A DNA stretch of 64,000 bases from Rhodobiaceae bacterium (GTDB lineage Bacteria; Pseudomonadota; Alphaproteobacteria; Parvibaculales; Parvibaculaceae). The notes beneath the pieces were generated by a model that searched no databases, had not been told where the DNA came from, and worked only from the letters and a program-made list of their open reading frames with translations. The DNA is taken from contig CP030277.1 of the NCBI GenBank assembly GCA_003330885.1, forward strand, positions 1,302,001 through 1,366,000, in the 5' to 3' direction. The translations under genes were made by a program, and so were the position numbers. Positions 17,689 through 42,912 of this stretch are shown here, one piece after another (position 1 is the first letter of the stretch; each line of letters starts with the position of its first letter).

Positions 17689-18669
17689 ATGACCAGCTCG
17701 GACGCAAACCCAACACCGCTCTTCCCACACCGGCATTTGATCGGTATCGAAGGCCTTTCCCAAGCTGACATTACCTCCCTTCTTGATCTTGCAGATGGAT
17801 ATGTCGACCAAAACCGGCAGATCAACAAAAAGGGCGACGTGCTGCGTGGCCGCACCCAGATCAATCTTTTCTTTGAAGCCTCCACCAGAACGCAAAGCTC
17901 GTTCGAGTTAGCTGGCAAGCGCCTGGGCGCCGATGTCATGAACATGTCGGTCAGTTCGTCCTCCATCAAAAAAGGCGAGACTCTGATCGACACCGCTACG
18001 ACCCTTAATGCCATGCATCCGGACCTGATCGTTGTTCGCCATGGAGACAGTGGCGCGGTGGAATTGCTCTCCCAGAAGGTCGGCTGTTCTGTCCTGAACG
18101 CCGGCGATGGCAGTCATGAACATCCAACGCAGGCACTTTTGGACGCACTCACCATCCGACGTCGCAAAGGTCGCCTGGAAGGTCTGACTGTCGCCATATG
18201 CGGCGACATCCTTCACAGTCGCGTGGCGCGTTCAAACATTCTTCTGCTGAACATTATGGGCGCGCGGGTGCGCGTCATCGCTCCGAAAACACTTTTACCA
18301 ATTGGTATTGAGCGACTTGGCGTCGAAGTCTTCAACGACATGACTGAAGGCTTGAAGGATGTCGACATTGTCATGATGCTCCGCCTGCAGCTGGAACGCA
18401 TGCATGGATCTTTCGTGCCGTCAGTGCGGGAATATTTCCGCTACTTCGGGCTGGACTATGAAAAGCTCAAGGTCGCAAAACCCGACGCCTTGATCATGCA
18501 TCCAGGGCCCATGAACCGCGGCGTAGAGATCGACAGTGCGGTCGCCGACGACATCAATCGCTCTGTCATTCGCGAACAGGTGGAAATGGGTGTTGCTGTT
18601 CGTATGGCCGCGCTTGACGCCCTCGCCCGCAACCTGCCGAACGAACAACAAGCAGGAAATGGCGCATGA
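17689..18669 (+). CDS. pyrB: Aspartate carbamoyltransferase catalytic subunit
   Basis: Carbamoyl phosphate + L-aspartate to N-carbamoylaspartate, the committed pyrimidine step. 326 residues: the carbamoyl-phosphate site [22 protein letters not shown], split over STRT near residue 65, SIKKGETL with the 80s-loop Lys, HPTQALLD at the hinge, and MMLRLQLER in the aspartate domain. No Shine-Dalgarno is present; the promoter's -10 ends 12 bases before the ATG, so translation is probably leaderless. It overlaps pyrC' by four bases. Confidence 0.96.
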
Positions 18670-39413: not shown

Positions 39414-40130
39414 ATGGGCCAGCAGATACCAAATGAGCGAGCTGCGAACGCATTTAGCGAGAGCATACACCCGGTCATCGACACCATGGAAATGCGCCTT
39501 CGCTGCGAACTGCTCAGAGAAGCACAAGAGTCGGTAGATCCCGACACTGTTGTCGTCAAAGCCCTTGAATATGCAGCCGAGGCAGAACAGCGCATTGCTG
39601 AACTCAACGCTCGCGTGCGTACATTGGAATCTCTGGCGAAGACAGATGAACTCACAGGCCTTCTCAATCGCCGTGGTTTTTATGATGCCGTAAGGCGAGA
39701 GTTACAGCAATCCGCGCGCCATAAAGAGACGGGTGTCCTTGCCTATATTGACTTGGATGAGTTCAAACCCATCAATGACACACTCGGACACGCAGCCGGC
39801 GACGAAGTTCTCCGCGCCGTTGGAAGACAGTTAGGCACGAACATTCGGGCGACAGACTTTGCCGCGCGCCTTGGTGGCGACGAGTTTGCTGTCCTCTTCG
39901 TGCGCGCAGAACACATTCCTGCACGCAAACGCGCACGCGTGATGCTGGAAGAATTAAACAGCCTCACAGTGCCTTGGAAACGAAAAAAGGTCCAAGTACG
40001 AGCCAGCATGGGACTTGCAAACTACACGGGCGAAACTGCGTTCGAAGAACTGCTCGCCCAATCAGATCGGGCGATGTATCGCGAAAAACGCAAAGCGACC
40101 GAAAGCCGCTCAGCCGCTGCTACCCGGTAA
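39414..40130 (+). CDS. Diguanylate cyclase (GGDEF) with coiled-coil
   Basis: 238 residues. The first about 85 are helical, with a coiled-coil (EYAAEAEQRIAELNARVRTLE) typical of dimerisation; the rest is a GGDEF domain: LTGLLNRRGF, FAARLGGDEFAVLF. An inhibitory site RATD sits five residues before GGDEF, so feedback by cyclic-di-GMP is likely. AAGGAG lies eight bases before ATG 39414. No sensor or membrane domain. The last 21 bases overlap the convergent gene at 40110. Confidence 0.92.
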   Translation: MGQQIPNERAANAFSESIHPVIDTMEMRLRCELLREAQESVDPDTVVVKALEYAAEAEQRIAELNARVRTLESLAKTDELTGLLNRRGFYDAVRRELQQSARHKETGVLAYIDLDEFKPINDTLGHAAGDEVLRAVGRQLGTNIRATDFAARLGGDEFAVLFVRAEHIPARKRARVMLEELNSLTVPWKRKKVQVRASMGLANYTGETAFEELLAQSDRAMYREKRKATESRSAAATR

Positions 40131-41162
40131 AGCAGGTTCTGGCTGGGTGAGACGTCGAATAGCACCTCCCCCTTTTGCAAGCACAGGTGTTGGTACCTGC
40201 ACCACCTTTCTGTCTGAATAGACCGCACCGATGATCGAGGCAGCGACCGCATCGTTTGGGTCTCCATAGGACGGCATGATCACCGCACCATTGGCCACAT
40301 AATAATCCAAATAATTCGATGCTAGAGGTTTCCCATCAAAGCCAGCCTGCTGGTTCTGAGGCAGCGGTACTGATGTGATCGTAAGCCTGTCACCTCGCGC
40401 CGTAACAGCTGACTCCAAATGAGCCTTGTTATCTTCCAGTGTCGCTCTGTCGAAATCATCTGCATCTGATACTTCTGAAACAAGTACTCGGTCTCGCCCG
40501 GCAAAAACCGCAACACGGCTAACCTGCCCCTGCGTTGGGTCTGCGGCCAGGCCACCGCCAAGCCACACAACCTTCCGAGCCCCCAGAAAAAGCGCAAGTC
40601 GCTCTTCAATCTCCGGTCGGGTCAATTCCGGATTGCGGTCTTCATTGAGAAGGCACTCTTCTGTTGCAAGCACAGTTCCATACCCGTCAGCGCTGATTGC
40701 GCCGCCTTCCAACACCATATCGGCTGCGAAGCTCTTCGTATTTTCGTGCCGGAGAACACTTGCTGCGAGCGCAGCGTCCCTGGCAATACCATGAACAGAA
40801 TTGCCCCAGCCATTGAACTGCCAGGCGATGCCTGCAATAGCGTCCTCACCATTGCTCAGAAACATCGGGGCTGTATCCCGCGCCCAGCAATCATCGATTG
40901 GGAGCTCAAGAAACTGAACATTTTTGTTGCGACCACAAGCAAACCGCGCCTGAGACGCGTCCTCTTCCCGAACAATAACCGTCACCGGTTCGTATTCGGC
41001 AATAGAACGAATGACTTCTGCCGCTTCGGTGTATGCCTGAGGCATCAAATCGCGCCAGCGATCAGCTCGTGACGGCCATTGCACCCAACACCGCTTGTGT
41101 GGCTCCCACTCTCCGGGCAGAAAAAACCCCTCACCCACCGGAGAGTGTAAATAATCGTCCAT
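40110..41162 (-). CDS. Agmatine deiminase-like protein lacking catalytic residues
   Basis: Guanidino-modifying (pentein) fold protein, 350 residues, aligned along its whole length with agmatine deiminase: GEWEPHKRCWVQWP, DDCWARDTAP, FNGWGN, VLEGGAIS, LLNEDRNPELT. But the nucleophile motif IHCIT reads AIRRLTQ (335-339), so the Cys is Arg337, and the DGHVDN motif reads QGQVSR (211-216), so the catalytic His is Gln213 and its Asp is Ser215. Deiminase or hydrolase activity is therefore unlikely; a binding or regulatory role is inference. No frameshift is seen. AGGGGA precedes ATG 41162. It is divergent from ridA. Confidence 0.85.
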   Translation of the reverse strand: MDDYLHSPVGEGFFLPGEWEPHKRCWVQWPSRADRWRDLMPQAYTEAAEVIRSIAEYEPVTVIVREEDASQARFACGRNKNVQFLELPIDDCWARDTAPMFLSNGEDAIAGIAWQFNGWGNSVHGIARDAALAASVLRHENTKSFAADMVLEGGAISADGYGTVLATEECLLNEDRNPELTRPEIEERLALFLGARKVVWLGGGLAADPTQGQVSRVAVFAGRDRVLVSEVSDADDFDRATLEDNKAHLESAVTARGDRLTITSVPLPQNQQAGFDGKPLASNYLDYYVANGAVIMPSYGDPNDAVAASIIGAVYSDRKVVQVPTPVLAKGGGAIRRLTQPEPALPGSSG

Positions 41163-41252
41163 CAGGTCCCCTAATCCGACTCAAAACACTGCGCAGAAGA
41201 CCCATTGTGCCGTAAACTGCTGAGAAAGAAAAATCACTGACAGGATGTTGAA

Positions 41253-41720
41253 ATGAGTGAAAGTACCGCAGCCAAGTTGAACCAACTCGGGATCACCCTT
41301 CCAAAGCCAACACCTGCGGCAGGGACATACTCGCCCTACACCATTTCAGGCAATCTTGTCTTCATCTCCGGCCAGGTCCCTGTAGGGCCTAGCGGCCTGG
41401 AGTTCCAAGGCAAGGTCGGTGACAAATTCAACGTCGACCAAGCCAAAGCTGCGGCCCGTCTCTGCGCTATCAACATACTGTCCCAACTGTCTGCCGCGCT
41501 CGAAGGTGATCTCGACCGCGTCACGCGCTGCGTGAAGCTGGGCGGCTTTGTGAATTCAGTGCCTGACTTCGGTGACCACCCTGCCGTCATGAACGGCGCA
41601 TCCGATCTCATGGTTGAGGTGTTTGGCGACAAGGGCAAACATGCCCGCTTCGCCGTCGGCGCTCCGTCTTTGCCCTTCGACGTGGCGGTAGAAGTCGAAG
41701 CCATCTTCGAGATTGCGTGA
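41253..41720 (+). CDS. RidA/YjgF family protein
   Basis: 155 residues, trimeric chorismate-mutase-like fold. Hallmarks: YSPYTISGNLVFISGQVP, RLCAINILSQLSAALEGDLDRVTR, and HARFAVGAPSLPFDVAVEVEAIF, where the Arg would bind the imine/enamine carboxylate. RidA proteins hydrolyse reactive 2-aminoacrylate formed by PLP enzymes; the longer subfamily seen here has less settled roles. Separated from the deiminase-like gene by a 90-base divergent region. The next gene starts ten bases on. Confidence 0.93.
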   Translation: MSESTAAKLNQLGITLPKPTPAAGTYSPYTISGNLVFISGQVPVGPSGLEFQGKVGDKFNVDQAKAAARLCAINILSQLSAALEGDLDRVTRCVKLGGFVNSVPDFGDHPAVMNGASDLMVEVFGDKGKHARFAVGAPSLPFDVAVEVEAIFEIA

Positions 41721-41730
41721 GCGCCAGCTT

Positions 41731-42912
41731 ATGGGTGATGCCGAACAGGTGGTGATGAAGGTCGTGCCCCGCATGGAAGAAATTCCAGCGGCTGCATGGG
41801 ACGCCTGTGCCAATCCAGGTGGCGAGATTGCAGACATTCCCTTCCTGTCACACGCCTTTCTGAAGGCATTGGAAGAAAGTGGATCAGCAACTGCCAGAAC
41901 CGGTTGGGCACCCCACCACCTCATCCTTGAAGAGCCCGACGGCAGCCTTGCTGGCGTCGTTCCGATGTATATGAAAAGCCACAGCCAGGGCGAATATGTG
42001 TTCGACTATGGCTGGGCCGATGCTTTTGAGCGCGCCGGCGGCAACTATTATCCAAAACTGCAAGTCTCTGTGCCCTTCACGCCAGCGACTAGTCGGCGCA
42101 TTTTGGCGCGCCCAGGTCTGTTTCAGGAGCGGACCGAAGACCAATTGACAGCTGGCATGATCGAACTGGCGCGGCAGCTGGAAGTCTCTTCTGTTCACCT
42201 CACCTTTTTGCCTGAAAAACAATGGACAAGATTGGGAGAACTGGGCTTTCTCCAACGAACAGACCAACAGTTTCACTGGCTGAACAATGGCTATGATACT
42301 TTTGATGATTTCCTGACGGACCTCGCCTCCCGCAAGCGCAAAAACCTTCGCAAAGAACGAGAACGCGCGCTTGAAAATGGCATTGAAATCGAATGGGTAA
42401 CAGGGTCCGACCTGAAAGAAACTCACTGGGATGCGTTTTTTGAATTCTACACCGATACCGGCATGCGCAAATGGGGCTCGCCCTATCTGACACGTGAGTT
42501 CTTTTCCATGATCGGCGAAACCATGGCCGACGAAACGCTACTGATCATGGCAAAGCGTGAGGGTCGCTATATAGCCGGTGCGCTGAATTTTGTCGGTTCG
42601 GAAACCCTATTTGGCAGGAATTGGGGCTGCATCGAGCACCACCCATTTCTGCATTTTGAAGTTTGCTACTATCAGGCGATCGATTTTGCCATCTCCAAGG
42701 GACTGAAGAAGGTTGAAGCAGGCGCTCAAGGGGCCCACAAGCTTGCCCGCGGCTATTTGCCAACCCACACCTATTCCGCCCACTATATTGCCAATCCAAG
42801 CTTCCGGGAGGCTGTAGAGCACTATCTTGAACAAGAGCGGCGTCATATAGATCATGACATTGCTGCGCTCAGCAGGCACGCACCCTTTCGGCAATCCGGC
42901 GACGAGAACTAG
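41731..42912 (+). CDS. COG3146/DUF482 GNAT-fold protein
   Basis: 393 residues with two acyltransferase-like (GNAT) halves, as in COG3146 proteins annotated peptidoglycan biosynthesis or N-acetyltransferase. Signature pieces: DIPFLSHAFLKALEESGSA, FDYGWADAFERAGGNYYPKL, RKRKNLRKERE, FYTDTGMRKWGSPYLTREFF, and AGAQGAHKLARGY. The substrate is not known; FemAB-like ligation is possible. I start at ATG 41731, with no strong Shine-Dalgarno; another ATG lies 24 bases on. Likely co-transcribed with ridA and the HIT gene. Confidence 0.85.
   Translation: MGDAEQVVMKVVPRMEEIPAAAWDACANPGGEIADIPFLSHAFLKALEESGSATARTGWAPHHLILEEPDGSLAGVVPMYMKSHSQGEYVFDYGWADAFERAGGNYYPKLQVSVPFTPATSRRILARPGLFQERTEDQLTAGMIELARQLEVSSVHLTFLPEKQWTRLGELGFLQRTDQQFHWLNNGYDTFDDFLTDLASRKRKNLRKERERALENGIEIEWVTGSDLKETHWDAFFEFYTDTGMRKWGSPYLTREFFSMIGETMADETLLIMAKREGRYIAGALNFVGSETLFGRNWGCIEHHPFLHFEVCYYQAIDFAISKGLKKVEAGAQGAHKLARGYLPTHTYSAHYIANPSFREAVEHYLEQERRHIDHDIAALSRHAPFRQSGDEN

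Follow-up and report, generated by a model that had tools for sequence, protein, structure and literature searches.

Agmatine deiminases work with a Cys as the nucleophile, a His as the general acid and an Asp as the anchor of the substrate guanidine, and in the MtAIH enzyme the amine of agmatine is held by Asp220 (PMC6447857). Also, a Cys-His-Asn triad has been proposed for these enzymes, with an Asn (Asn306 in EfAgDI) as its third residue (PMC4487231). AguA2 from Listeria monocytogenes is a precedent for an inactive family member (PMC7698193). Moreover, human PADI6 is a retained pentein relative of the arginine deiminases that is inactive in vitro, with the Cys replaced and the pocket closed (PMC11402830). 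The protein studied here is encoded in the window, a stretch of 64,000 nucleotides from a Rhodobiaceae bacterium (contig CP030277.1, positions 1,302,001 to 1,366,000), and it resembles these cases in part. Like PADI6, it is a retained pentein relative of the arginine deiminases with the Cys replaced; however, PADI6, which is of animal origin and sits on a different branch of the superfamily, keeps the His and both Asp residues. The defect of Listeria AguA2 is a single substitution that leaves the Cys and His motifs in place, whereas in the window protein the catalytic residues themselves are replaced. AguA2 also has an active paralogue beside it, whereas six of the seven species of the window's genus have no other AguA-type copy. 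Then, with AguA2 and PADI6 already known as inactive members, it is the stepwise and repeated character of the loss that adds interest here. Among the papers searched, none pairs agmatine deiminase with pseudoenzyme, and agmatine deiminase and RidA co-occur in two of them, a single time in each and in unrelated contexts.

The gene (40110-41162, minus strand) is an uninterrupted reading frame of 350 residues, annotated as a PAD_porph pentein-fold pseudoenzyme of the agmatine deiminase family on the basis of the reading frame, PF04371, TIGR03380, AlphaFold2 and Foldseek. With 323 bits against a PF04371 cut-off of 25, the protein is by sequence a clear member of the Porphyromonas-type PAD family, but one whose catalytic residues have been lost. 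Its 279 bits against TIGR03380, the NCBIfam agmatine deiminase equivalog, fall below the cut-off of 381.8, a weak test, since intact orthologues at the syntenic position mostly miss it too, at about 350-384 bits. The pentein fold, a five-bladed alpha/beta propeller, is predicted to be intact in the AlphaFold2 model (pLDDT 91.9), and agmatine deiminases rank first in a Foldseek search with this model, with a TM score of 0.94 and an rmsd of 1.5 for 3h7c (AtAIH). The reference structures are 3H7C and 3H7K for AtAIH, 6NIB for MtAIH and 2JER for EfAgDI. The window protein shares with the AguA/AIH enzymes the fold, the family-wide framework and syntenic orthology to intact homologues, but it lacks the catalytic Cys, His, Asp and Asn and the amine-binding acid, and its genome, searched by protein family, lacks AguB.

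At its 3' end the gene converges on, and overlaps by 21 bp, a GGDEF diguanylate cyclase gene (39414-40130, plus strand). On the other side it is divergent from ridA (41253-41720, plus strand; PF14588 and PF01042), which is followed by a gene for a FemAB-like protein (41731-42912, plus strand; PF04339). The sequence-only reading had placed the two divergent genes 90 bp apart, which corresponds to an intergenic region at 41163-41252 that is partly conserved in six species of the genus and where no sigma-70 consensus was found.

For the residue comparison, the window protein was aligned with 33 intact homologues and the numbering was matched through alignment with PDB structures. The motifs read DDCWARDTAP (90-99), VLEGGAIS (150-157), DPTQGQVSR (208-216) and GGGAIRRLT (331-339). 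The nucleophile position 337 (EfAgDI Cys357, MtAIH Cys366) is Arg, as is position 336, the His of the IHC motif in homologues (both codons at 40152-40157, minus strand), and His-Cys is present in 33/33 intact homologues. In the DPTQGQVSR segment (codons 40515-40541, minus strand; PMC6447857), which carries Pro209, Gln213, Ser215 and Arg216, the general-acid position 213 (EfAgDI His218) has become Gln and the second guanidine-binding acid at position 215 (EfAgDI Asp220; the MtAIH pair is Asp94 and Asp226) has become Ser. The earlier claim that Arg, Gln and Ser stand in place of the Cys, His and Asp is thus exact against the functional family. Two further replacements were absent from its list: the catalytic Asn at position 286 (EfAgDI Asn306; PMC4487231) is Asp (codon 40305-40307, minus strand), and the amine-binding acid at position 209 (MtAIH Asp220) is Pro. 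On the other hand, Asp91, Trp93 and Trp119 are kept, as are Asp96, the guanidine-anchoring Asp of RDxGP (codon 40875-40877, minus strand), and Glu152 of the EGG motif (codon 40707-40709, minus strand). Among 82 invariant or nearly invariant columns of the intact homologues, 63 are kept in the window's genus and 19 are lost, about half of the losses being in the catalytic motifs (E209P, H213Q, D215S, S283N, N286D, H336R, C337R, I338L, Q341P and Q342E). A chance motif match is ruled out, as the 33 intact homologues are invariant at the substituted positions. We infer that the window protein would be unable to deiminate agmatine, and the gene, likely to be named agmatine deiminase (family), would then be annotated with a step that it probably cannot carry out.

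The family sample comprised 40 genomes, and an order-level search gave the identical set. The protein is present at the same locus in 7/7 genomes of the window's genus (g1), and six of these species carry the identical substitutions GQVSR...RR (75-94% identity to the window protein). The deepest branch of the genus (G004, 60% identity) reads GHVSK...RR, with Arg-Arg, Ser215 and Asp286 present and His213 still in place. The IRR/QVSR pattern noticed in the single sequence is therefore fixed in a clade, RR in 7/7 and QVS in 6/7 genomes, and among 385 class-wide genomes RR occurs in three, all from g1. In a second genus with a dead protein at the same locus (g5, two genomes), Cys is replaced by Ala, Asn by Gly and Trp93 by Arg, while the His and Asp are retained. 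Both dead genera have the Cys and Asn altered; within g1, Asp215 is altered in 7/7 and His213 in 6/7. The genera g2 and g4 and the family f121 have intact proteins at this same syntenic position. The window protein is a syntenic, vertically inherited orthologue of the intact agmatine deiminases of neighboring genera, and a single locus displays a stepwise series: intact, then Cys and Asn lost, then Asp lost, and finally His lost.

In the protein tree, g1 and g5 form one clade (support 98/96, rising to 100/98 once the columns of the active site are masked), and their proteins have a 2-residue insertion in common. However, a 7-gene tree of the neighboring genes does not group both genera as sisters, although sisterhood is not rejected either (AU p 0.2), so one or two losses are possible in g1 and g5.

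Under a codon model, omega is 0.057 for the dead g1 protein (six species) and 0.089 for its intact g4 counterparts; nine genes neighboring the g1 locus span 0.021-0.106, and purifying selection on the dead protein thus matches that on its neighbors. Also, close pairs show dN/dS of about 0.04-0.05, the g5 pair shows a dN of 0.019 with a dS of 0.368, and there are no frameshifts or stops in the nine genomes of g1 and g5. A pseudoenzyme is recognized by catalytic residues lost in a gene under purifying selection, and both are found here; that this dead deiminase has been kept under selection is very well supported. Sequencing error or a recent pseudogene is ruled out, because the substitutions are common to seven species and omega is low. 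Gene decay after replacement of the pathway would agree with the longer stem branches of the dead clade in the protein tree, but the low omega, nine open frames, fixed new residues and intact predicted fold make it scarcely credible. The same evidence upholds the proposal of the sequence-only reading that the protein was retained rather than decaying.

The conservation extends to the pocket. Sixteen pocket positions were picked by homology, nine of them with ancestral residues and seven with new ones, and across six g1 species 16/16 are invariant compared with 214/334 positions elsewhere (Fisher p 0.002). The chance that the dead protein has a ligand-binding pocket is, in our judgment, slightly short of even. 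A rebuilt pocket and a structural requirement are inseparable by sequence alone, and the rebuilt pocket is the weakest step of the mechanism. The protein could instead be a pure scaffold acting only through its surface, in an oligomer with RidA, with the FemAB-like protein or with some other protein, while the pocket is sealed and irrelevant. Non-catalytic penteins that act by binding are known, for example eIF6 (PMC3820961), such a role is proposed for PADI6 (PMC11402830), and the retained family-invariant residues and conserved neighborhood point in the same direction; however, the new pocket residues are fixed in six species beyond what is expected for a freely drifting pocket, so that we hold a scaffold to be unlikely. 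A fixed and highly conserved pocket, where Asp96, Glu152 and two Trp residues are kept beside new Arg, Gln, Ser and Asp residues, might also suit a new enzyme, rebuilt for another reaction in which the Cys nucleophile is dispensable. Against this, no catalytic constellation of the pentein superfamily is left, and the differing subsets of losses in g5 and in a further family, f67, fit loss of function better than one gained chemistry; a new enzyme is thus very improbable.

The genomic context of polyamine synthesis offers a plausible trigger for the loss. The agmatinase family converts agmatine to putrescine in one step, whereas an agmatine deiminase turns agmatine into N-carbamoylputrescine and is followed in its route by AguB. 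AguB scores over the cut-off in 29/31 other genomes of the family and in 0/9 dead-protein genomes, whereas an arginase-family gene is found in 9/9 of the latter and in 0/31 of the others. The two arginase-family genes tested, one from g1 (G000) and one from g5 (G038), reach 236 and 245 bits against an agmatinase equivalog cut-off of 174.3, and the agmatinase gene has the same neighbors in both genera. Moreover, eight g4 genomes (G017, G021, G023, G025, G026, G028, G030 and G031) have AguB together with only the syntenic-type deiminase, a pairing that supports a biosynthetic role of the intact orthologue. One such intact protein matches plant agmatine iminohydrolases at 282-294 bits. The exchange of AguB for agmatinase is a reasonably probable cause of the deiminase loss, although no more than two evolutionary events, and perhaps a single one, underlie the correlation seen in the family.

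The same distribution bears on another possible role: as a pseudo-subunit or an allosteric effector, the protein could sense agmatine or polyamines and regulate agmatinase or whatever active deiminase remains. All nine dead-protein genomes have a possible agmatinase partner, and g5 and one g1 genome (G008) carry a second, canonical AguA. However, the other six g1 genomes lack any further AguA-type protein, the agmatinase gene lies away from the pseudoenzyme locus among unrelated neighbors (G000:C1:2624349), and the amine-binding acid is gone in g1, which together render such regulation improbable. The AguA of G008, the only canonical one seen in g1, belongs to a catabolic agmatine deiminase cluster (L068:8061-12706) with a GadC-like permease, a putrescine carbamoyltransferase and an amino-acid kinase. 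As for other polyamine enzymes, nspC (carboxynorspermidine decarboxylase) is absent throughout the family and is therefore uninformative, and a LysA-fold decarboxylase class (PF02784, about 185-199 bits, e.g., L077 and L078), which we read as ODC-like, occurs in g2, g4 and g5 and in 0/7 g1 genomes; g1 may therefore be without the ornithine route to putrescine.

Taken as a whole, the explanation that we favor as likely is that the deiminase chemistry was lost after the switch to agmatinase while a second, non-deiminase role was retained. Before the genera split, a working biosynthetic-type agmatine deiminase would have occupied the GGDEF-PAD-ridA-femAB locus. The putrescine route would then have switched to agmatinase, removing selection for deiminase chemistry. 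Gone from the protein are the nucleophile, the general acid, the guanidine-binding Asp, the catalytic Asn and the amine-binding acid. Its retention would reflect a second job that the deiminase was already doing and that needed a folded, probably ligand-occupied protein; as the agmatinase-using relatives share the loss, the protein looks retained for such a role. The pocket would have been rebuilt with Arg216, Arg336, Arg337 and Asp286 beside the old Asp96 and Glu152, and could either bind a different, partly acidic metabolite or have Arg337 as an internal plug where the substrate guanidinium would sit, the rebuilding favoring a changed ligand or self-plugging over mere neglect. In that case the protein would work as a sensor or oligomeric partner, through binding and without turnover. 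Because the pocket and the synteny are conserved, the second role would probably be ligand-binding or regulatory at the PAD-RidA locus.

The sequence-only reading had also linked the protein to reactive nitrogen intermediates through ridA. The position is indeed conserved, the divergent PAD-RidA pair being found in three families; but the pair occurs with intact and dead proteins alike, so the pairing is older than the loss and cannot account for it, and the RidA link to the pseudoenzyme is only positional.

Among the best 26 hits outside the family, damage is also seen in the three proteins of genus g170 (family f67), while that of a family-mate (L108) is intact. The damaged proteins read GQVNK, SYLD and IHC (L099, genome G317), GQVNK, SYLD and IHS (L106), and GHVDK, SYLD and IHS (L109). 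L099 is half-dead: the IHC Cys is kept although Gln has replaced the His, Asn the Asp and Asp the Asn, an order of loss unlike that of g5. In the tree they group with L108, and a single origin of all dead forms, with f67 in a common clade with g1 and g5, is rejected (AU p = 0.0034); the changes H to Q, D to S/N and N to D therefore arose in parallel, the steps in f67 being H to Q, D to N, N to D and C to S. Selection on the f67 protein may be somewhat relaxed, since its omega of 0.113 exceeds those of its RidA (0.048) and FemAB (0.057). In f67, too, the gene is divergent from ridA, and downstream of ridA come a GDPD-family phosphodiesterase gene (L121, L122 and L123) and then femAB; in the window, no GDPD-family gene lies between ridA and femAB.

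Outside the family, the association with AguB and agmatinase is loose. For example, the dead-protein genomes G394 and G224 are without AguB over the cut-off and have agmatinase-scoring genes, while the half-dead G317 has AguB. Also, G370, G343 and G150 combine intact proteins with agmatinase-scoring genes, a combination on which a strict rule that agmatinase implies a dead protein fails, and G262 and G159 have intact proteins with neither AguB nor agmatinase, as is the case in f121. A broader proposal is that the agmatine deiminases of alphaproteobacterial PAD-RidA loci also serve a non-catalytic purpose, which was laid bare on two or more independent occasions when agmatinase takeover made the deiminase chemistry dispensable, while the pocket was remodeled along parallel lines (H to Q, D to S/N, N to D, C to R/S) to give a novel sensor that binds a ligand; we regard it as conceivable but doubtful. 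Comparison of intact, half-dead and dead orthologues makes a non-deiminase function of agmatine deiminase testable.

Finally, two other genes were observed in the same genome. The window encodes a protein of the aspartate/ornithine carbamoyltransferase family at 17689-18669 (plus strand). A second, very divergent PAD_porph protein (L049:1938-3215, minus strand, corresponding to G000:C1:471802-472710) retains the Cys motif GGGVRCMSW and possibly has a signal sequence.
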